DNA from: Hasllibacter sp. MH4015
Lineage (GTDB): Bacteria; Pseudomonadota; Alphaproteobacteria; Rhodobacterales; Rhodobacteraceae
Assembly: GCF_020177575.1 (NCBI RefSeq)
Contig: NZ_JAHTBK010000001.1
Coordinates: 1,795,875-1,859,874 of the forward strand
Length of the DNA: 64,000 bases
Reading direction: 5' to 3'
Shown: positions 53,235 through 63,558 of the stretch, in pieces
Layout of the letters: every line of letters starts with the position of its first letter
Position numbering within the stretch: position 1 is the stretch's first letter
Program-made: the position numbers and the translations under genes
Notes under the pieces: model-generated
Databases searched by the model: none
Seen by the model: only the letters and a program-made list of their open reading frames with translations
Told to the model about the DNA's origin: nothing

Positions 53235-54698
53235 TCAAACCCCCGCCGGAATGTTCAGCGGATCGCGCTCAATCTTCCTCGGCGTGTTCAGCGCCTTCCA
53301 CTTGCTCAGCGCCTGCGACGGGCTCGCCGCCGGGGGCCGCTTCACGAACCGCCCGCGCCCGGGCTGGGGCTGCGAGTTCTGCCCTGCCGCCCAGACCACA
53401 TCCCCGCGGCTCAGCGTATAGCGGGGCGAGGCACTCACCTCCATCCCCTCGAACACATTGTAATCAAGGATACTTTTCGCCGTCGACGTCGAGATCGTCC
53501 GGCCAAGTTTCGGGTCCCAGACCACCACATCGGCGTCGCCGCCCACGTTGATCCCTCCCTTCATCGGGTAGATGTTCAGGATCTTCGCGATGTTGGACGA
53601 CGTCACCGCCACGAATTCCTCCGGCGTCAGGCGGCCCGTCTCAACCCCGCGCGTCCAGAGCATCGCCATCCGCTCCTCGAGGCCTCCGGTCCCGTTCGGG
53701 ATCATCGCAAAGTTATCGACACCCATGCGTTTCTGCTCATCGGTGAAGGCCGCGTGGTCTGTCGCGACCACCTGCAGCGACCCGGCGGCGAGGCCGTTCC
53801 ACAGCCCATCCTGATGGTCCTTCGAGCGGAACGGCGGCGACATCACCCGGCGCGCGGCGTATTGCCAATCCTTGTTGAAATACTCGCTCTCATCCAGCGT
53901 CAGGTGCTGGATCAACGGCTCGCCGTAAACGCGCATCCCTTTCTGGCGGGCACGCCGGATCGCTTCGTGGGCCTGCTCGCAAGAGACATGCACAATATAC
54001 AAAGGCGTTCCGGCTGCATCGGCGATCATGATCGCGCGGTTCGCGGCTTCGCCCTCGACCTCCGGGGGCCGCGAATAGGCATGCCCCTCCGGCCCAAAGA
54101 CCCCTTCCTCAAGGTATTTCTGCTGAAGCTCCGCCACGATGTCCCCGTTCTCCGCATGGACCAGCGGCAGTGCACCAAGTTCGGCGCAGCGCTTGAAGGA
54201 GGCGAACATCTCGTCATCCTCGATCATCAGCGCGCCTTTATAGGCCATGAAGTGCTTGAACGTGTTGATGCCGCGTTCTTTAACGACGGCCTCCATCTCA
54301 TTGAAAATGCTCTCGTTCCAGCCGGTGATCGCCATGTGGTACGAGATGTCGACGCAGATCTGGTCCTTCGACTTGCGGTCCCATTCGTCGATGGCGTTCA
54401 GGAGCGAGCCGTCCTCCCCGGGCAGGCAAAAATCGACGAGCATGGTGGTCCCGCCCGCCGCCGCGGCGAAAGTGCCGGTCTCGAACGTCTCCGCCGCGGT
54501 GGTACCCATGAAGGGCATCTCAAGGTGGGTGTGGGGGTCGATGCCCCCGGGGATCACATAGGCGTCGGAGGCGTCGATGACCTCGTCGCCGTTCAGGTTC
54601 TCGCCGATCTCGGCGATCTTTTCGCCTTTGATCAGCACATCCGCCTTCCATTGACGGTCCGCGGTCACGATCGTGCCGCCCTTGATCACCTTGCTCAT
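53235..54698 (-). CDS. hydA: Dihydropyrimidinase (hydantoinase)
   Basis: A 487-residue amidohydrolase that opens dihydrouracil and dihydrothymine to N-carbamoyl-beta-amino acids. Metal motifs are present: GGIDPHTHLEMPF (about residues 51-63), the carboxylated Lys in FKHFMAYKGAL (about 146-156), the His in LVHAEN and YIVHVS, and the Asp in ATDHAAF. A GGGGGA sequence precedes the start 54698. It follows the HyuC-type gene in the same operon direction. Confidence 0.92.
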   Translation of the reverse strand: MSKVIKGGTIVTADRQWKADVLIKGEKIAEIGENLNGDEVIDASDAYVIPGGIDPHTHLEMPFMGTTAAETFETGTFAAAAGGTTMLVDFCLPGEDGSLLNAIDEWDRKSKDQICVDISYHMAITGWNESIFNEMEAVVKERGINTFKHFMAYKGALMIEDDEMFASFKRCAELGALPLVHAENGDIVAELQQKYLEEGVFGPEGHAYSRPPEVEGEAANRAIMIADAAGTPLYIVHVSCEQAHEAIRRARQKGMRVYGEPLIQHLTLDESEYFNKDWQYAARRVMSPPFRSKDHQDGLWNGLAAGSLQVVATDHAAFTDEQKRMGVDNFAMIPNGTGGLEERMAMLWTRGVETGRLTPEEFVAVTSSNIAKILNIYPMKGGINVGGDADVVVWDPKLGRTISTSTAKSILDYNVFEGMEVSASPRYTLSRGDVVWAAGQNSQPQPGRGRFVKRPPAASPSQALSKWKALNTPRKIERDPLNIPAGV

Positions 54699-54720
54699 GA
54701 TATCCCCCAAATTTGCTCCG

Positions 54721-54975
54721 TTACGACTGCGCCACCACGCAGATCATGCGTTGCTCCCGCGTCAGAAGCGGGATGTACGTGCTTTCGACAGGGCCGCGAT
54801 GCAGGTACCAGTAGCAGCCGTCGGGCTCCAACCGGGCGCTTGACGGGTCCTGACCCGGCGCGACGAGTGCCAGCACCTCATCGGGCAGTTCCTCCACCTG
54901 GCCCTCAGGCGTCGGCGTCACACAGCCCGCCAGGGCGAGCGACGCGCAGGCGGCCAGCCATACCTTTGAATTCAT
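54721..54975 (-). CDS. Small lipoprotein coupled to the carbamoylase gene
   Basis: An 84-residue protein with a lipobox LALAGC at about residues 13-18 and two further Cys (GCYWY, MICVV). Its start overlaps the upstream HyuC stop by ATGA. It ends 22 bases before the HydA start. Function unknown; an envelope protein inside a cytosolic catabolic operon is unexpected. Confidence 0.65.
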   Translation of the reverse strand: MNSKVWLAACASLALAGCVTPTPEGQVEELPDEVLALVAPGQDPSSARLEPDGCYWYLHRGPVESTYIPLLTREQRMICVVAQS

Positions 54976-56222
54976 TCTACAATCTCCGCCGTTTCCACGA
55001 CCGCATGGAACAGAACATCCGTGCCGGCCGTCGCCCATTCGGGGCTGATTTCCTCGGCCTCGTTATGGCTCAACCCGTCCACGCAGGGACACATCACCAT
55101 CGCCGTCGGGGCCACATCATTGATCCAGCACGCATCGTGCCCTGCCCCCGATACGATATCCATGTGAGAATATCCAAGCCTCTCAGCCGCTTGGCGAATG
55201 GCCGTGACACATTTGTCATCGAAGGCGGGCGGGTCGAATTGGCCCACGATCTCGGCCTCGAAGCCCACACCGATGTCTTCACACAGCGCCGGCGCACGCT
55301 CCATCAGCTCGTCCACCATCGCGTTCAGCTTGTCGAGAAGGTGGGTCCGCATGTCGACAGTGAAGACGACCTTGCCCGGAATGATGTTGCGGGAATTGGG
55401 ATAGACGTCGATATGCCCGATAGCACCCACCGCATTGGGCTGGTTCTTCATCGCGATCTCGTGGACAAGCTCGGTGATCAGCGCGAGGCCGCGGCCCGCA
55501 TTCTTGCGCATATGCATCGGGGTGGAGCCGGTGTGGCTTTCCTTGCCCGTCACCGTGCATTCGATCCAGCGCAGGCCCTGCCCGTGGGTGACGACGCCGA
55601 TATCCACGCCTTCCGCCTCCAGAATGGGGCCTTGCTCGATATGGAGCTCGAAGAAGGCGTGCATCTTGCGATCGCCGACCTTTTCCTCGCCTTTCCAGCC
55701 GATCCGTTCGAGTTCATCGCCGAACCGCTTTCCCTCCGCGTCGACGCGGTCATAGGCCCAGTCGAGCGCGTGTTTCCCTGCGAAAACCCCGCTGGCGAGC
55801 ATTGCGGGCGCGTAGCGGGTGCCTTCCTCGTTCGTCCAGTTCGTGACCACGATGGGATGCTTTGTCCTGATGTCGAGGTCGTTCATCGTGCGGATGATCT
55901 CCAACCCGCCAAGCACGCCCAGAACGCCGTCGTATTTCCCGCCCGTGGGCTGGGTATCGAGATGGCTGCCCACGTAAACCGGCAGCGCATCCGGGTCCGT
56001 CCCCTCGCGCCGGGCGAACATGTTGCCAATCTCGTCGACCCCCATGGTGCAGCCCGCATCCTCGCACCAGCGCTGGAACAGGTGCCGGCCCTCGCTATCC
56101 TCATCGGTCAGCGTCTGGCGGTTGTTCCCGCCCGCGATGCCGGGGCCGATCTTGGCCATCTCCATCAGCGAGTCCCACAAACGCTCGCCGTTGATCTTCA
56201 TGTTTTCGCCGGGGGCTGGCAT
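54972..56222 (-). CDS. Zn-dependent N-carbamoyl-beta-alanine amidohydrolase (HyuC/PydC-type, M20)
   Basis: A 416-residue M20-fold amidase that removes the carbamoyl group from N-carbamoyl-beta-alanine, giving beta-alanine, CO2 and NH3. Zinc ligands appear in GSHLDTQP, GVLGVLGGLE, NEEGTRY and the ELHIEQGP segment; the late H is in AGHDACW. It lies between the cupin and lipoprotein genes. Allantoate or L-carbamoylase activity is possible, but the pathway context favours beta-ureidopropionase. Confidence 0.88.
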   Translation of the reverse strand: MPAPGENMKINGERLWDSLMEMAKIGPGIAGGNNRQTLTDEDSEGRHLFQRWCEDAGCTMGVDEIGNMFARREGTDPDALPVYVGSHLDTQPTGGKYDGVLGVLGGLEIIRTMNDLDIRTKHPIVVTNWTNEEGTRYAPAMLASGVFAGKHALDWAYDRVDAEGKRFGDELERIGWKGEEKVGDRKMHAFFELHIEQGPILEAEGVDIGVVTHGQGLRWIECTVTGKESHTGSTPMHMRKNAGRGLALITELVHEIAMKNQPNAVGAIGHIDVYPNSRNIIPGKVVFTVDMRTHLLDKLNAMVDELMERAPALCEDIGVGFEAEIVGQFDPPAFDDKCVTAIRQAAERLGYSHMDIVSGAGHDACWINDVAPTAMVMCPCVDGLSHNEAEEISPEWATAGTDVLFHAVVETAEIVE

Positions 56223-56232
56223 GGGCTCGCTC

Positions 56233-56514
56233 CTATTTCAGTTCGGTCTCGATGAAGGCCATCGGCGCATCGCCGCCATTGATCACGTTATGCTCAACGC
56301 CCTGATCCCGGCGATAGACGCTGCCTGCGGGGATCGTGACCTCGCGGGTCTCCCCACCGGGCTCCTCCAGCCGCATCTGGCAATCGGTCAGCGTGGTGAT
56401 CACGTAATCCATGCCGTGGACGTGCCAGCCGGTCTCATCCCCGGGCGCGAAATCGAACCGGGTGACGCGCACGCGGGCATCGTCGATCAGGGTTTCCGCC
56501 TTTGCTTCAGGCAT
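56233..56514 (-). CDS. Small cupin protein
   Basis: A 93-residue single-cupin protein. The His-rich metal box is in ETGWHVHGMDYV (about residues 26-37) and PAGSVYRRDQGVEHNVIN (about 60-77) gives the second motif. Lies 10 bases upstream of the HyuC-type gene on the same strand. May be a metal-binding accessory or a decarboxylase-type enzyme; exact role unknown. Confidence 0.8.
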   Translation of the reverse strand: MPEAKAETLIDDARVRVTRFDFAPGDETGWHVHGMDYVITTLTDCQMRLEEPGGETREVTIPAGSVYRRDQGVEHNVINGGDAPMAFIETELK

Positions 56515-56730: not shown

Positions 56731-58059
56731 TCACTTCAACCCCTGCAACACGTCACGCAAGGTGCCATACAGCTGATCTATCTCGCCCTTCGAGATGATC
56801 AGCGGCGGCGACATGGCGATGATGTCGCCGGTCGTGCGGATCAGGACGCCCTTCTCGTAGCAATCGAGGAACGCCTGGAAGGCGCGCTTTGTGGGCTCCC
56901 CTGCAATCGGTTCCAACTCCACCGCGCCGATCAGGCCCATGTTGCGGATGTCGATCACATGGGGCAGGCCGCGCAGGGAATGCAGCCCCTCTTCCCAATA
57001 GGGCGCGAGGTCCGCCGCACGTTCGAACAACCCGTCTTCGCGATAGGTCTCCAGCGTCGCGAGACCGGCGGCCGACGCAATGGGATTGCCCGAATAGGTG
57101 TAGCCGTGGAACAGCTCGATCAGGTGCTCGGGCCCTTGCATGAAGGCATCGTGGATGCCTTTCGTGGCCAAGACCGCGCCCATCGGGATCACGCCGTTGG
57201 TCAGCCCCTTGGCGGTGGTGATGAGGTCCGGCATGACATTGAAATGCTCCGCCGCGAAACTGCTGCCAAGCCGCCCGAAGCCGGTAATCACCTCGTCGAA
57301 AATCAGCAAGATGCCGTGCTTCGTGCAGATCTCGCGCAGCCGTTCGAGGTACCCTTTGGGCGGCATCAGAACGCCGGTGGACCCGGCCATGGGCTCCACG
57401 ATACAGGCCGCAATCGTCTCCGCCCCGTGGAGCGCCACGATCCGTTCCAGATCCTCGGCCAGATGCGCGCCGTGTTCGGGCTGGCCTCTGGTGAAGGCGT
57501 TCTCCGGCAGATGGGTGTGCGGCAGGTGATCCACCCCGGTCAGGAGCGAGCCGAAGACCTTGCGGTTGTTCACGATGCCACCGACGGAGATGCCGCCGAA
57601 ATTCACCCCGTGATAGCCCCGCTCGCGCCCGATCAGGCGGGTCCGCGACCCCTGCCCGATGGCGCGCTGGTACGCGATAGCGATCTTGAGCGCCGTTTCC
57701 ACCGACTCGCTGCCGGAATTGGTGTAAAAGACGTGCTCGAATGGCTCCGGCGCCATGTCGCGCAGCCGGTTGGCCAGCTCGAACGCCTTGGGATGGCCCA
57801 TCTGGAAGGCGGGCGCATAGTCCAGCTCCGCCGCCTGTTTCTGGATCGCCTCCACGATCCGCGGCTGGTTGTGGCCGGCGTTGCAGCACCACAATCCGGC
57901 GGTACCGTCCAGCACGTCGCGGCCATCGGCGGTCTTGTAATGCATCTTGTCGGCGCCCACGAACATGCGCGGGGTCTGCTTGAATTGCCGGTTCGCGGTG
58001 AACGGCATCCAGAAGGCGCTCAAGTCATTGGGAACCGGGTTGCTGCGGTCAAGTGCCAT
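56731..58059 (-). CDS. Omega-amino acid:pyruvate aminotransferase (class III)
   Basis: A 442-residue PLP enzyme. The FDEVITGFGRLG block with the cofactor Asp and the TTAKGLTNG block with the Schiff-base Lys are present. Members move the amino group of beta-alanine or other omega-amino acids to pyruvate, giving malonate semialdehyde from beta-alanine. Its place at the head of the pyrimidine catabolic genes, divergent from rutR, supports beta-alanine as substrate. Confidence 0.9.
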   Translation of the reverse strand: MALDRSNPVPNDLSAFWMPFTANRQFKQTPRMFVGADKMHYKTADGRDVLDGTAGLWCCNAGHNQPRIVEAIQKQAAELDYAPAFQMGHPKAFELANRLRDMAPEPFEHVFYTNSGSESVETALKIAIAYQRAIGQGSRTRLIGRERGYHGVNFGGISVGGIVNNRKVFGSLLTGVDHLPHTHLPENAFTRGQPEHGAHLAEDLERIVALHGAETIAACIVEPMAGSTGVLMPPKGYLERLREICTKHGILLIFDEVITGFGRLGSSFAAEHFNVMPDLITTAKGLTNGVIPMGAVLATKGIHDAFMQGPEHLIELFHGYTYSGNPIASAAGLATLETYREDGLFERAADLAPYWEEGLHSLRGLPHVIDIRNMGLIGAVELEPIAGEPTKRAFQAFLDCYEKGVLIRTTGDIIAMSPPLIISKGEIDQLYGTLRDVLQGLK

Positions 58060-58115: not shown

Positions 58116-58234
58116 GGACACGCTAGCAAATGCCCTGTGCCAGTCAACGTAAACGATACCGCAGATTGCCCCTTTCGAATGCATCTGCCAAGGAAAGCCG
58201 CGAATGTGCCGCGACTTTGGGCAAGGAGAACGTG

Positions 58235-58846
58235 ATGGCCGTGCCCAAACCCCGCACCCGCATCCAGGAAAAGAACCGCGCCCGCGTGTTGGAGGCGGCG
58301 TTGGAGGTGTTTTCCCGCCACGGTTTTCGCGGCGCAACCCTGGATGAGATCGCGCGGGAGGCGGGGCTGTCGAAGCCCAACCTGCTCTATTATTTCGCCT
58401 CGAAGGAGGAGATCCACGTCACGCTGCTTGAGGGGTTGGTGGATACCTGGCTCGACCCGCTGCGCGCGCTGGATGCCGATGGTGATCCGCAGGCGGAATT
58501 GCTGGCCTATGTACGACGCAAGTTGCAGATGAGCCGGGACCTGCCGCGCGAGTCGCGCCTGTTCGCGCAGGAAATCGTGCAGGGCGCGCCCCGGATGAAA
58601 GACGGGCTGTCGACGGATTTGAAGGCGTTGGTCGATGAAAAGGCCGAGGTGCTGCGTGGCTGGTCCAGCGCGGGGAAGCTGGCCCCGGTCGATCCGCATC
58701 ACCTGATCTTCTCGATCTGGTCGCTGACCCAGCATTACGCTGATTTCGACGTGCAGGTCCGCGCGGTTCTGGGAGAGGGCCGGGAACCTATCGACGAGGC
58801 GGAGGTGTTCCTTGAGGCTTTGTTCCGGCGGGTTCTGGCGCCCTAG
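58235..58846 (+). CDS. rutR: Pyrimidine-responsive TetR-family regulator RutR
   Basis: A 203-residue TetR protein. The HTH ends in LSKPNLLYYFASKEEIHV, and the ligand domain carries RLFAQEIVQGAP, DLKALVDEKAEVLRGW, SAGKLAPVDPHHLIF and IWSLTQHYADF, all close to E. coli RutR, which binds uracil and thymine. AAGGAGAA precedes 58235; the open frame upstream has no RBS. With the operator at 58100 it likely represses the catabolic and transport genes in the absence of pyrimidine. Confidence 0.9.
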   Translation: MAVPKPRTRIQEKNRARVLEAALEVFSRHGFRGATLDEIAREAGLSKPNLLYYFASKEEIHVTLLEGLVDTWLDPLRALDADGDPQAELLAYVRRKLQMSRDLPRESRLFAQEIVQGAPRMKDGLSTDLKALVDEKAEVLRGWSSAGKLAPVDPHHLIFSIWSLTQHYADFDVQVRAVLGEGREPIDEAEVFLEALFRRVLAP

Positions 58847-58899: not shown

Positions 58900-59319
58900 T
58901 CAAGCCTCGATCTTCGACACCGTGAAGGCTTCCAGATCCAACCCCTCGGCCTCCGCCCCATCGAAATCAATGTGAAGATGGTTGCCGTCCGGGTCCCAGA
59001 CATTGACCTGGACCAGCGGCATGTCGGGCACTTGGACCACGCGGTGCGGTTCCCCGCCATCAGCCAACCGCTCCAGAAACCCGCGCAGACCTCTCGCCCG
59101 GAACGCCGCGTGTTCCAGTGCCAGGTCATCCGCCTTGGGCGACGCGGTCGCGACCTCCACCAGATGCACGACCGGGTGATCGCCCGCGTAAAGCCATGCC
59201 CCGGCAAAGGGAAAGGGCGGGCGATGTCCGTTCCGAAGCTTCAAATACTGGCCGTACCAAGCGATCATCGCTTCCATCTGGACGGTCTGAAGGTTCACGT
59301 GGTCGAGGCGCTCGATCAT
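58900..59319 (-). CDS. VOC-family (glyoxalase-like) protein
   Basis: A 139-residue single VOC domain protein with two beta-alpha-beta-beta-beta units. Metal-ligand positions are suggested by LDHVNLQT (His7 region), VVHLVEV and HLHIDFDG. It starts 11 bases after the preA stop and ends the preT-fpg-preA unit. Its role in pyrimidine breakdown, if any, is unknown. Confidence 0.82.
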   Translation of the reverse strand: MIERLDHVNLQTVQMEAMIAWYGQYLKLRNGHRPPFPFAGAWLYAGDHPVVHLVEVATASPKADDLALEHAAFRARGLRGFLERLADGGEPHRVVQVPDMPLVQVNVWDPDGNHLHIDFDGAEAEGLDLEAFTVSKIEA

Positions 59320-59330
59320 CTATCCGCCGC

Positions 59331-60635
59331 TCACTCCGCCGCTTCGACCCGGCCCGGATTATTGGGATGGGTGGTCCAGTTGGCATAATCCGGCTCCACC
59401 GGCTTGCCGGTGCGGGGGTCGACCTCTCCGGCGTCCATCTCGACCATCGTGATGCAATCCTCCACCGGGCAGACATTGACGCAGAGGTTGCAGGCCACGC
59501 ATTCGGCGTCGATCACCTCGAACACGCGGTCGGCGGACATGGAAATCGCCTGATGCGACGTGTCTTCGCAGGCCGCATAGCAGCGCCCGCACTTGATGCA
59601 GGCATCCTGGTCGATCCGCGCCTTGGAGACGTAGTTGAGGTTCAGGTACTGCCAATCCGTCACGTTCGGCACCGCGCGGCCCACCAGGTCGTCGAGGCTC
59701 ATCCCCTTCTCATCGAGATATTGCGACAGGCCCGAGATCATCTCCGACACGATTTTGAAGCCGTAGGTCATCGCCGCCGTGCAGACCTGCACGTTGCCCG
59801 CGCCGAGCGCCATGAATTCGGCCGCATCACGCCACGTCGTGATGCCCCCGATGCCGGAGATCGGCAGGCCGTGCGTCTCGGGATTGCGCGCGATTTCCGA
59901 CACCATCGACATGGCAATCGGCTTCACCGCCGGGCCGCAATAGCCGCCATGGGAGCCTTTGCCGTCGATGGACGGCTCGGGTGACATCGTGTCGAGGTTC
60001 ACGGATGTGATGGAATTGATCGTGTTGATGAGGCTGACCGCATCCGCCCCGCCACGATGCGCGGCTTCCGCCGGTTTGCGGATGTCGGTGATGTTGGGCG
60101 TCAGCTTCACGATGACGGGTTTGGAGTAGTATTGCTTGCACCAGCGAGTTACCATTTCGATGTATTCCGGCACCTGCCCCACGGCGGCGCCCATGCCACG
60201 CTCCGACATGCCGTGGGGGCAGCCGAAGTTCAGCTCGATCCCGTCCGCGCCGGTATCCTCCACCAGGGGCAGGATGGCTTTCCACGCCTCCTCCTCGCAA
60301 GGCACCATGATGGAGACGATCATCGCGCGGTCAGGATAATCCGCTTTCACACGCTTGATCTCTTCAAGGTTGGTGTAGAGGTCGCGGTCGGTAATCAGTT
60401 CGATATTGTTGAGGCCCAGAAGCCGCCGGTCCGCGCCGTAGATCGCGCCGTAGCGGGGTCCGTTCACGTTCACCACGGGCGGGCCTTCCGCGCCGAGGGT
60501 TTTCCACACGACCCCGCCCCACCCGGCCTCGAACGCGCGGCGGACGTTGTATTCCTTGTCCGTCGGCGGCGCGGAGGCGAGCCAGAAGGGGTTTGGCGAA
60601 TGGATGCCGAGGAAGTTGGAGGTCAGGTCAGCCAT
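59331..60635 (-). CDS. preA: Dihydropyrimidine dehydrogenase subunit PreA
   Basis: A 434-residue flavin/iron-sulfur subunit that reduces uracil or thymine. The FMN barrel (residues about 1-310) contains the NFGCPHGMSERGMG active-site loop and GIGGITTWRDAAEF; two 4Fe-4S motifs follow, CIKCGRCYAAC and CVACNLCVNVC. GAGGAG precedes start 60635. Works with PreT, encoded upstream beyond the DNA glycosylase gene. Confidence 0.93.
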   Translation of the reverse strand: MADLTSNFLGIHSPNPFWLASAPPTDKEYNVRRAFEAGWGGVVWKTLGAEGPPVVNVNGPRYGAIYGADRRLLGLNNIELITDRDLYTNLEEIKRVKADYPDRAMIVSIMVPCEEEAWKAILPLVEDTGADGIELNFGCPHGMSERGMGAAVGQVPEYIEMVTRWCKQYYSKPVIVKLTPNITDIRKPAEAAHRGGADAVSLINTINSITSVNLDTMSPEPSIDGKGSHGGYCGPAVKPIAMSMVSEIARNPETHGLPISGIGGITTWRDAAEFMALGAGNVQVCTAAMTYGFKIVSEMISGLSQYLDEKGMSLDDLVGRAVPNVTDWQYLNLNYVSKARIDQDACIKCGRCYAACEDTSHQAISMSADRVFEVIDAECVACNLCVNVCPVEDCITMVEMDAGEVDPRTGKPVEPDYANWTTHPNNPGRVEAAE

Positions 60636-60646
60636 GGTTTGTCTCC

Positions 60647-61432
60647 TCAGAATGCGCTCTGGTGGTCGGGGCAGAAATAGGACGTGCGCCCCCCCACGGT
60701 TTTCTTCGTGATGGTGCCGTCGCAGCGGGTGCAATCGTCGCCTGCCGCGCGGTGGTGGATCAGCCAGTCGCCCGGCAGCTTGGAATAATCCGCGCCGGTG
60801 TCGACCACGGCTTGCAGGATATCACGACTCGCCCGGTGCATGTCCGTGACTTTGCCGGTGGGCAGATCGCAGGCCCGCGTTTCGGGGTCGATACCGGTGC
60901 GGTAGAGCGTCTCGTCCGCCCAGAGATTGCCGATCCCGGCCAGCTTTTTCTGGCTCAGCAGGGCGGATTTCACCGCGCCCCGCGTCCCGCCCACGGCGCG
61001 CGCGAAGGCATTGTCGCCGATGGTCAGGGCGTCGGGGCCGAGGCCCTTGGCCGTGATGAAGGCCTCCACGTCCTCCACCAGTTCCACGTGGCCGAATTTG
61101 CGCGGATCGCGGAAATGCAGGCGGTGATTGCCTTCGAAGACGATCGTGAAGCGGATGTATTTGGCCTCCGCCTGCCCCGCCGTCATCACGCGGACGGAGC
61201 CGGCCATACCAAGATGGATATGGAGCCATGGCCCGTCGACGGAGCCCACGAAAATGTATTTCCCGTGTCGGTGGGTCCGGGTGAATTGCGTCCCGATCAG
61301 ACGGTCCCGGTCGGGCTTGGAGGGCATGTCCATATGGCGCACCTCCCCCAACCGGATGTCGGTGATGGTGCGATGAAGCGCCCCGTCCTCGATCCGCTGG
61401 CGGGCGGCTTCTGCCTCGGGAAGCTCAGGCAT
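60647..61432 (-). CDS. Fpg/Nei-family DNA glycosylase
   Basis: A 261-residue DNA glycosylase/AP lyase. It begins MPELPEAE, with Pro2 as catalytic amine and Glu3. A conserved Lys appears in RHGKYIFV, the HLGMAGS helix follows, then the intercalation-type RKFGH. The C-terminal zinc finger is DCTRCDGT-FCPDHQ, where the fourth ligand is His instead of Cys. It overlaps preT by eight bases and ends 11 bases before preA, so it is cotranscribed with both. Whether it is MutM- or Nei-type is not settled. Confidence 0.9.
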   Translation of the reverse strand: MPELPEAEAARQRIEDGALHRTITDIRLGEVRHMDMPSKPDRDRLIGTQFTRTHRHGKYIFVGSVDGPWLHIHLGMAGSVRVMTAGQAEAKYIRFTIVFEGNHRLHFRDPRKFGHVELVEDVEAFITAKGLGPDALTIGDNAFARAVGGTRGAVKSALLSQKKLAGIGNLWADETLYRTGIDPETRACDLPTGKVTDMHRASRDILQAVVDTGADYSKLPGDWLIHHRAAGDDCTRCDGTITKKTVGGRTSYFCPDHQSAF

Positions 61433-62765
61433 CGCCGGACAGAGCCGCGTGGATATCCTCCGCCGCGTCGCGCCCCTCGGCCACGGCGGTCACGGTCAGG
61501 TCTTCGCCTCCGCTGGCGCAATCGCCGCCCGCCCAGACACCTTCCGCGCTGGTCCGGCCCGCGCCGGTCACGGCGATCTTGCCCCCGTCGAGGGTGAGCG
61601 CATCGGGTGCGCCGTTGAGCGTCTGGCCGATGGCCTTCAGCACCTGGTCGGCGGGAATATCGAACGTCTCTCCCGTACCGGTCAGGCTGCTTCCCTCGGC
61701 GCGGGTATATTCACACCGAAGCGCCTGTGCCGCGCCGTTGCCGAGCACTTCCACCGGCATGGCGTTGAAGATGAAGCGCACGCCCTTGGAGGCGGCAAGG
61801 TCCTGTTCGAACCGGCTGGCGGGCATGGAATCGCGACCCCGGCGATAGACCAGGGTGACGTTCTCCGCCCCCAGCAGCTTCGATTGCACGGCGGCGTCGA
61901 TGGCCGTCATGCCACCGCCGATCACGACGATGTTTCGGCCCACGGGCAGCGCCGCCAGGTCATCGGCCTGGCGCAGGTTGGCGATGAAATCGACGGCGTC
62001 GACCACACCTTCGCGCCCTTCCCCCTCCGCCCGCAAAGCGTTCACGCCCGCCAGACCCATGCCAAGGAAAACAGCGTCGTAATCTGCGCGCAGCGTGTCG
62101 AGCGACAATTCCCGCCCGAGGGCCTTGTTGTAATGCACTTCGATGCCGCCGATTTTCAGCAGCCAATTCACCTCCGCCTCCGCGAAGCCATCGGTCGTCT
62201 TGTAATAGGCGATACCGTATTCGTTCAGGCCGCCCGCCTTGGGCCGCGCATCGAACAGGTCCACGCCGTGGCCATGCATTGCCAAACGGTGTGCGCAGGC
62301 CAGCCCGGCGGGGCCCGCACCGATCACGGCGATCCGTTTCCCCGTCGCCGGTGCCCGTTCGAACGGATGCACGCCGGAGGCCATCACCGTGTCGGTCGCA
62401 TACCGCTGCAACTGGCCGATCAGCACCGGCTTGCCCTCGGCCGCCTCGCGCACGCAGGCCTCCTCGCACAGTGTCTCGGTCGGGCAAACCCGCGCGCACA
62501 TGCCGCCAAGGATGTTCTGGTCGAAGATCGTCTGGGCCGCCGCCTCGGGCGTGCCGGTGGCGATCTGGCGGATGAAAAGCGGGATGTCGATGTCGGTCGG
62601 GCAGGCCGTGATGCAGGGTGCGTCGTGGCAGAAATAGCACCGGTCGGCGGCCACCAGCGCCTCATGCGCGTCCAGTGGTGCGTGCAGGTCGCTGAAATTC
62701 TCGGACAGGGCATCCGGCGCCAGACGTGCGGGCGCGATGCCGGGGGTGAAGGGGCTGTTGGTCAA
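61425..62765 (-). CDS. preT: Dihydropyrimidine dehydrogenase subunit PreT
   Basis: A 446-residue FAD/NAD(P)H electron-transfer subunit. The N-terminal Fe-S region has CYFCHDAPC and CARVCPTETLCEEAC. FAD and NAD Rossmann motifs are IAVIGAGPAGLACAHRLA and IVVIGGGMTAIDAA. It is the first gene of the unit; a weak RutR box lies 63 bases upstream. Works with PreA. Confidence 0.92.
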   Translation of the reverse strand: MTNSPFTPGIAPARLAPDALSENFSDLHAPLDAHEALVAADRCYFCHDAPCITACPTDIDIPLFIRQIATGTPEAAAQTIFDQNILGGMCARVCPTETLCEEACVREAAEGKPVLIGQLQRYATDTVMASGVHPFERAPATGKRIAVIGAGPAGLACAHRLAMHGHGVDLFDARPKAGGLNEYGIAYYKTTDGFAEAEVNWLLKIGGIEVHYNKALGRELSLDTLRADYDAVFLGMGLAGVNALRAEGEGREGVVDAVDFIANLRQADDLAALPVGRNIVVIGGGMTAIDAAVQSKLLGAENVTLVYRRGRDSMPASRFEQDLAASKGVRFIFNAMPVEVLGNGAAQALRCEYTRAEGSSLTGTGETFDIPADQVLKAIGQTLNGAPDALTLDGGKIAVTGAGRTSAEGVWAGGDCASGGEDLTVTAVAEGRDAAEDIHAALSGDA

Positions 62766-62827
62766 GGCGGCCTCCCTTGCGAATGCTGGGGTCTTCGGTT
62801 GGGTTCAGGCTGGCACGGGTTCAAAAA

Positions 62828-62843
62828 TTTATCAAATGGTAAA
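62828..62843. promoter_or_regulatory. Degenerate RutR operator upstream of preT
   Basis: TTTATCA-AA-TGGTAAA agrees with the RutR consensus at 11 of 14 defined positions, same spacing as the perfect site at 58100. It lies 63 bases before the preT start, in the gap shared with divergent accB. Confidence 0.6.
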
Positions 62844-63045
62844 ATTTCTGCCGGACCGGGTGGGCCGAAAGCCTTGCGGATGAAAGCATGTTTGCCGAAA
62901 ATTTGGGCGATTGCGGGCTGCAATCGCGCAGACCAGCGCCCATATCGGGATGAACAGAGCGGCTTTTCCCCGGCGGAACCCTGCGGTATAGCGGCTCAAC
63001 ACGACCGTCCCGCAGGCGGGGCCAAGGACAACGATGGGGAGCATT

Positions 63046-63558
63046 ATGGCTGAGAAACCGCATGATCAGGACGTGGCCTTCATCAAGGCTTTGGCGGAGG
63101 TGCTTCGGGAAAACGATTTGACCGAGTTGCACGTCAAGCGTGAATACGGCGAAAGCGATTGGTTGAATGTCCGCGTGGCCAAGCAGCAGCCCATGGCCGC
63201 GCAGCCCATGATGATGCAGGCCCCCGCGGCACCGGCCACGCCCGCACCGGCCGCTGCGCCCGCGGCCCCCACCTCCTCCCCCGCCGCGCAAGCCCCAGCC
63301 GTTAGCGAAGATCCGGCCCAGGCCCCGGGTGCCGTGACCTCGCCCATGGTCGGCACCGTCTATTTGCAGCCCGAACCCTCCGCGCCCGCCTTCGTCAGCG
63401 TGGGGGACAAGGTGGTTGAAGGTCAGACGCTTCTGATCGTCGAGGCGATGAAGACCATGAACCAGATCCCCGCCCCGCGCGCAGGCACGGTCAAGCGCAT
63501 CGTCGTGGAAGACAAGGCACCCGTCGAATTCGGCGCGCCGTTGATGATCATCGAATAA
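63046..63558 (+). CDS. accB: Acetyl-CoA carboxylase biotin carboxyl carrier protein
   Basis: A 170-residue BCCP. An N-terminal helical part and an Ala/Pro-rich flexible linker (about residues 48-92) precede the lipoyl-like domain with the biotinylation motif [15 protein letters not shown] upstream supports 63046; ATG at 63034 is less likely. It is the first gene of accBC, the start of fatty acid synthesis. Confidence 0.94.

Follow-up and report, generated by a model that had tools for sequence, protein, structure and literature searches.

A DNA glycosylase gene of the Fpg/Nei (H2TH) superfamily lies between preT and preA, the two genes for dihydropyrimidine dehydrogenase, in Hasllibacter sp. 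MH4015, and within the Rhodobacterales this is a conserved operon position. We analyzed the gene in a 64,000-nt stretch of that genome (the window) and in other genomes. Our main reading, at a probability of roughly 0.6, makes the gene operon cargo and its product an accessory repair enzyme, a glycosylase acting on ring-opened purines, hydantoins, and perhaps also saturated pyrimidines. The gene is often found between the two pyrimidine-breakdown genes in marine bacteria; because it also occurs in bacteria with no detected pyrimidine-breakdown gene, it probably encodes a general repair enzyme in a shared slot.

The glycosylase gene (60647..61432, minus strand) encodes 261 aa from an ATG start, with the N-terminus ATGCCTGAG. 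It scores above the Pfam cut-offs for Fapy_DNA_glyco (PF01149, 90.6 bits) and H2TH (PF06831, 55.0 bits). Upstream on the same strand, preT (61425..62765), encoding the FAD/Fe-S subunit of the NAD-dependent dihydropyrimidine dehydrogenase, takes its name from its Fer4_20 and Pyr_redox_2 domains and its position beside preA. The catalytic subunit gene, preA (59331..60635, minus strand; start read from the sequence), matches the NCBIfam equivalog NF006183 at 724.9 bits (cut-off 335). The end of preT forms the first 8 bases of the glycosylase gene (ATGCCTGA; 61425..61432, minus strand), and 11 nt separate the glycosylase stop from the preA start at 60635; both distances had been read from the window beforehand and are exact. 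Since the glycosylase start overlaps the end of preT, the enzyme is probably made together with the reductive pyrimidine catabolism operon, presumably by co-translation. A scan of 59200-63100 revealed no intrinsic terminator-like site, a tRNA scan of the window was negative, and none of the three consensus promoter-like sites from a promoter scan is positioned to drive the glycosylase.

The surrounding genes match a reductive pyrimidine catabolism (preTA) operon. Within 53-63 kb of the window lie, besides preT and preA, genes for a dihydropyrimidinase (53235-54710), an amidase (54972-56222), a cupin (56233-56514), the omega-aminotransferase AptA (56731-58059), and a RutR-like regulator (58130-58846, plus strand), the last scoring under the RutR cut-offs (234.8 against 368 and 207.9 against 230). 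Between the amidase and dihydropyrimidinase genes, a small ORF (54721-55038) has a lipoprotein-like start (LAGC) and no Pfam match. A glyoxalase-fold (VOC) protein is encoded directly after preA (58900-59319), and VOC genes are found inside the preT–preA slot of other genomes.

Two samples of genomes bear on the gene order. Among 390 same-order genomes from 139 genera, 19 genomes in 12 genera carry the glycosylase at E <= 1e-31. It lies between preT and preA in 17 of the 19, in some alongside additional genes; the two other carriers share one genus, and by the group codes of the order sample the preT–glycosylase–preA order recurs in 11 genera. A scan of named genomes, with two short conserved peptides as the query, placed 68 subfamily members (48-80% identity) among the best 80 of 96 loci; 32 of these 68 lie in the preT–preA slot, and among the Rhodobacterales loci of the same best 80 of 96 the fraction is 32 of 36. 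These two sets of carriers overlap and so are not independent: leaving aside the window's own locus, 13 of the 18 order-sample carriers are identical to named loci. In a class-wide draw of 385 genomes, the window genome and six others gave matches at E <= 1e-31, the six at 34-40% identity and with no preT or preA found in their 1.5-kb flanks. Among the papers listed by searches of an open-access library, we found no published report of the arrangement.

Counting the window, the glycosylase start overlaps preT in 21 of 33 linked loci, by 8 nt (with an ATG or GTG start) in 14 and by 1 nt in 7. On a quick tree of 69 subfamily rows, only three changes explain the distribution of linkage. Linked lineages branch deepest in this tree and in the careful 38-row tree described below, so linkage is probably ancestral in the Rhodobacterales and the Erythrobacteraceae copies are probably derived.

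Presence of the gene is patchy. PreA was detected at E <= 1e-150 in 356 of the 390 same-order genomes, all 19 carriers among them, and 337 of these 356 have no glycosylase match at E <= 1e-31. Within the window's own genus, the glycosylase occurs in 1 of 13 genomes and PreA in all 12 siblings; with 12 of the 13 lacking a match at E <= 1e-32, the earlier description of the gene as "locked" between preT and preA was too strong.

The gap between preT and preA behaves as a variable slot. We sampled it in 135 genomes, comprising 30 loci (the window's included), five siblings, and 100 regions among the matches listed, namely the top matches by likeness of preA to that of the window; cargo was counted anywhere in the stretch upstream of preA. 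Where the window has the glycosylase, 84 of the 135 genomes have 150 nt or less between preT and preA, and 51 have more. The long gaps hold a SAM methyltransferase gene in 34 (with a VOC gene as well in 3 of these), a VOC gene alone in 3, a VTT/DedA-like gene in 1, a glycosylase remnant in 1, and other content in 11. The single intact glycosylase is the window's, a count that is not a rate because known linked-glycosylase genomes were left out of the sample, as were a genome with a known remnant (G050) and some of the last rows listed.

Several slot genes merit description in their own right. The methyltransferase, the commonest gene between preT and preA, is about 289 aa long (L059:250-1116 and 33 other loci) and weakly resembles sarcosine/dimethylglycine N-methyltransferase (71.5 bits against a cut-off of 550); speculatively, it could methylate beta-alanine or another product of the pathway. 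A protein family with members of about 175 aa and no Pfam match occurs in or near the slot at 10 loci (L207, L113, L114, L121, L241, L040, L103, L045, L033, and L173), some of them duplicates of one genome, and adjoins the glycosylase or its remnant in 7 of the 10. In four slots (L060, L176, L180, and L217) the encoded proteins are small, apparently carry signal peptides, and have an (I/V/W)(G/W/F)FNEHT-like stretch in common; the L060 protein has no Pfam match. DUF1428 proteins occupy the slot in L239 (by Pfam) and L181 (by likeness), and VTT-domain (DedA-like) membrane proteins are encoded in or beside the preT–preA region at L004:2298-2834, L033:2945-3538, and L205:2031-2549.

The glycosylase is also broken in place in three genomes, all of which have preT and preA. 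One (G050, locus L033) has a C-terminal remnant and another (G114, locus L262) an internal deletion; in Litoreibacter roseus (L050, the same as L154), which counts among the 17 slot carriers, the N-terminal part is in another frame, possibly through an assembly error.

Comparison of the cargo with its flanks is consistent with exchange. In a quick tree the window preA falls together with those of 10 of the 12 siblings (95% SH-aLRT), all 10 without the glycosylase, and it shares 87-96% identity with the 12; the window preT is 81-87% identical to those of the siblings over the compared parts. The nearest glycosylase, at 80% identity, comes from Sulfitobacter (L089), whose preA and preT stand at 84% and 69%. 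With its closest counterpart there and its flanks sibling-like, the glycosylase either has a history separate from that of its flanks or disappeared from every sibling. In a distance-matrix (Mantel) test, the correlation was 0.44 for preA–preT, 0.27 for glycosylase–preT, and 0.13 (not significant) for glycosylase–preA, and hyuC–preA was also low at 0.05, which makes this a weak test of independent movement. Homologous recombination across the conserved preT and preA flanks would be the simplest account of how the slot is filled, and presence of the glycosylase there may reflect descent and such exchange more than any need for dihydropyrimidine repair.

Copies outside the operon also bear on that need. 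Among the 68 named loci (best 80 of 96), 36 are unlinked to preT or preA, and 32 of the 36 form one Erythrobacteraceae/Sphingomonadaceae clade in the quick tree. A 5-formyl-THF cyclo-ligase gene cluster lies just upstream of the glycosylase in 31 of these 32 loci, and DUF2842, zapA, transketolase, pyruvate dehydrogenase (PDH) subunit, and thymidylate synthase genes, named by Pfam on members at locus L124, recur around the clade's copies. The Erythrobacteraceae orthologues beside the folate, PDH, and thyA genes show 48-56% identity. At L124:3646-10714 and in other Erythrobacteraceae, the genes recur in the order zapA, 5-formyl-THF cyclo-ligase, DUF2842, and glycosylase, followed by those for PDH subunits and thyA on the other strand, which puts folate and thymidylate genes close to a repair glycosylase. 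When PreA was the protein searched (E <= 1e-20), just 3 of the 36 genomes carrying an unlinked copy gave a match and 33 gave none, some of the 36 being MAGs of unstated completeness; this speaks against a restriction of the glycosylase to PreTA-bearing genomes and weakens the case for a PreTA-only enzyme. PF01149 matches number two in 34 of the 36 genomes (one being partial, in G843) and one in the other two.

These results weigh against the functional link raised as a possibility in the sequence-only reading, and against a fuller form of it in which the enzyme is specialized for dihydrouracil, dihydrothymine, or adducts made by dihydropyrimidines and owes its retention in the operon to that role. 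We regard such PreTA-coupled genome protection as unlikely, even though the order recurs in 11 genera, the start overlaps preT in most linked loci, and linkage needs only three changes on the subfamily tree. Nor is the chemistry absurd: excerpts of the literature describe E. coli Nei acting on dihydrouridine in DNA (PMC6475869) and dihydropyrimidine build-up leading to DNA–protein crosslinks and replication stress in human cells (PMC7463900, citing Basbous 2020). Against the link stand the unlinked orthologues, whose neighborhood stays fixed where no PreA was found, the 337 PreA-bearing genomes of the order sample without a match to the enzyme at E <= 1e-31, its decay in situ beside retained preT and preA, and the many other genes housed in the slot; the excerpts found on plant FPG, moreover, make no mention of action on dihydrouracil. 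A dihydropyrimidine-specific role is unproven and is not required to explain the data. A stronger version, in which a repair enzyme was recruited into the pyrimidine-degradation operon and translationally coupled to it as free dihydropyrimidines or their adducts enter or damage DNA, strikes us as quite improbable. If it held, a metabolic pathway of the Rhodobacterales would come equipped with a DNA-repair enzyme of its own, and the Erythrobacteraceae copies would represent a later transfer turned to general repair, which the tree allows because linked lineages branch deepest.

At the other extreme, the gene could be nothing more than a hitch-hiker, mobile and coding for repair, with a position that means nothing for expression or function and a product that brings no operon-tied benefit. 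Patchy presence (19 of 390 same-order genomes and 1 of 13 in the genus), the three broken copies, and the variety of other cargo in the slot fit this description. Selection and position fit it less well, and we hold it to be unlikely. Across ten NG86 pairs, dN/dS of the glycosylase is 0.05-0.17 (dS is 1.1-1.8, near saturation, in the four that include the window gene), which fits purifying selection; 8-nt or 1-nt overlaps with preT are kept in 21 of 33 linked loci; and within the Rhodobacterales the slot location is nearly exclusive. The same linkage tempers our own reading of the gene as operon cargo: at 17 of 19 order-sample carriers and 32 of 36 Rhodobacterales loci (best 80 of 96), with 13 loci shared between the sets, it might exceed what is expected of a passive passenger, and the deepest branching of linked lineages might likewise be more than a purely passive passenger would show.

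The identity of the enzyme was examined with family models, structure, and trees. Against two general NCBIfam MutM equivalogs, the window protein falls short of both cut-offs (172.7 against 212 and 165.5 against 203.3), although MutM models are its closest in NCBIfam. A second PF01149 copy in the same genome (G000:C1:3138442) exceeds both, at 342.8 and 269.7 bits, as expected of a separate, bona fide MutM. Matches to Nei (60.3 bits against a cut-off of 252) and Nei2 (66.7 against 400) are far weaker. A PDB search with a profile of 46 relatives ranked Arabidopsis FPG (196.8 bits) above the best bacterial Fpg (167.8), and an AlphaFold2 model (mean pLDDT 95.7, pTM 0.90) returned Arabidopsis FPG chains at Foldseek ranks 1-4, with 26-28% identity.

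Trees agree with this placement. We refer to the subfamily and preA/flank trees as quick and to those with MutM and plant FPG (38 and 28 rows) as careful. The 38-row tree separates MutM from the subfamily, its relatives, and plant FPG at 100/100 support, and the split stays at 100/99 in the 28-row tree with the loop and finger columns removed. The relatives on the non-MutM side come from Streptomyces, a Planctomycetota MAG, an archaeal MAG, and others. The PDB profile, the fold search, and the tree all make Arabidopsis FPG the nearest characterized relative. The exact place of plant FPG may be nested or basal, either of which fits: it is one sequence of long branch and unusual composition, and the cut tree also permits a base next to MutM (64/90). 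The Streptomyces members of the outer clade (L162-L168) share 32-35% identity and lie in the branch of short-loop relatives, with no preT or preA found in the flanks examined. The recurrent gene order, the separate MutM elsewhere in the genome, the branch outside ordinary MutM, and the overlapping start all bear out the sequence-only reading, and neither of the outcomes it had named as refuting (an order unique to this genome, or a protein inside ordinary MutM that is the genome's only one) was seen; its dihydropyrimidine link is the part that was not supported.

Column counts over 69 subfamily rows, 15 outer relatives, and 7 MutM rows describe an intact active site under an altered loop. Lys58, Asn169, and Arg249 are present in 69 of 69 subfamily rows, and Pro2 and Glu3 in 67 and 68, the rest being gaps. 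The segment containing the capping loop for 8-oxoG (alphaF-beta9/10; residues 208-228, computed position 60749..60811, minus strand) is 21 aa long in 67 of 69 subfamily rows, the window protein included, 19-25 aa in the 15 outer relatives, and 32 aa in all 7 MutM rows, which makes the loop about 11 residues shorter than that of MutM. The zinc finger, C234-x2-C237 ... C254-P-D-H257 (computed position 60662..60733, minus strand), has three invariant cysteines and scores 19.6 bits in Pfam, just under the cut-off of 21.3. Its CPDH motif in place of CPxC, rightly noticed earlier, is no oddity and marks the subfamily, since the fourth ligand is His in 68 of 69 rows; one MutM-labelled row (L056) is also CxxH.

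A second, redundant MutM of the 8-oxoG type is a very unlikely description of this enzyme. The enzyme does share the fold and catalytic residues of MutM, its closest family models are MutM models, Met76 and Arg111 are kept in 69 of 69 rows, and an excerpt of PMC10573277 reports some 8-oxoG activity for plant FPG. The scores below both equivalog cut-offs, the position outside MutM at 100/100, the shortened loop, the replacement of Phe113 by Leu in 40 of 69 rows (the window protein has Phe), and the bona fide MutM already in the genome all speak against it. Ordinary MutM is ruled out by family cut-offs, tree, and loop, Nei by its equivalog cut-offs, and a chance neighbor unique to this genome by the recurrence of the order in both the order sample and the named loci.

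The cargo reading, by contrast with these, would work as follows. The gene product would be a bifunctional base-excision glycosylase/AP lyase of a plant-FPG-like bacterial subfamily. An intact active site (Pro2, Glu3, Lys58, Asn169, and Arg249) combined with a shortened capping loop predicts action on formamidopyrimidines, hydantoins, and AP sites, possibly on oxidized or saturated pyrimidines, and poor action on 8-oxoG, which the separate MutM would cover; we infer these substrates from homology at 26-28% identity. Between preT and preA the gene would occupy a cargo slot of variable content, refilled by exchange across the conserved flanks.

The wider interest lies both in the enzyme and in its location. 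A bacterial Fpg group with a shortened capping loop, a retained zinc finger, and a branch shared with plant FPG is a compact, testable system for the loss of 8-oxoG preference among Fpg enzymes and for the origin of plant FPG. The preT–preA gap, for its part, is a cargo slot whose content turns over fast although the operon around it is conserved, and with this arrangement a threat of dihydropyrimidines to bacterial DNA can be tested directly.

Among known glycosylases, the window protein most resembles Arabidopsis thaliana FPG1/MMH-1 (PDB 3twk, 3twl, and 3twm), with a short alphaF-beta9/10 loop and aligned Pro/Glu, Lys, Asn, and Arg. Unlike plant FPG, whose finger is zincless (PMC9266487), it keeps CxxC...CxxH, and its 261 aa compare with a 390-aa reference for the plant/fungal clade in an excerpt of PMC3188539. 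As excerpted, PMC6264785 and PMC10573277 (citing Kathe 2009 and Duclos 2012) describe plant FPG as likewise short-looped and as processing Fapy bases, guanidinohydantoin, spiroiminodihydantoin, and AP sites, with scarcely any activity on 8-oxoG. The excerpt of PMC10573277 adds that the initial description of Arabidopsis FPG credited it with 8-oxoG excision and that its isoform 1 suppresses the mutator phenotype of E. coli fpg, so a short loop need not exclude 8-oxoG activity in vivo.

With MutM, or bacterial Fpg1, of E. coli and G. stearothermophilus (the latter a row in the careful trees and not one of the 7 MutM rows of the column counts), the protein shares fold, Pfam domains, and catalytic residues; it differs in its loop, its Cys3His finger against the Cys4 of most MutM, its sub-cut-off scores, and its separate clade. 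Superfamily membership joins it to Nei and NEIL2, the latter also with a Cys3His finger (PMC9266487), whereas its N-terminus reads MPELPE against MPEGPE in E. coli Nei, and its Nei and Nei2 matches are far weaker. Loop classes were already distinguished in PMC3188539, which, as excerpted, gives 23, 18, and 12 residues for the BaFpg1, BaFpg2, and PFNei clades and presents BaFpg2 as a narrow bacterial Fpg clade that includes actinomycetes. By description, the subfamily resembles BaFpg2 as a bacterial non-MutM Fpg with a shorter loop, and the Streptomyces relatives may belong to that clade. The loop here, however, would be about 12 residues, 11 fewer than the 23 of MutM, and is thus closest to the 12-residue PFNei class of that excerpt, yet the subfamily keeps its zinc finger.
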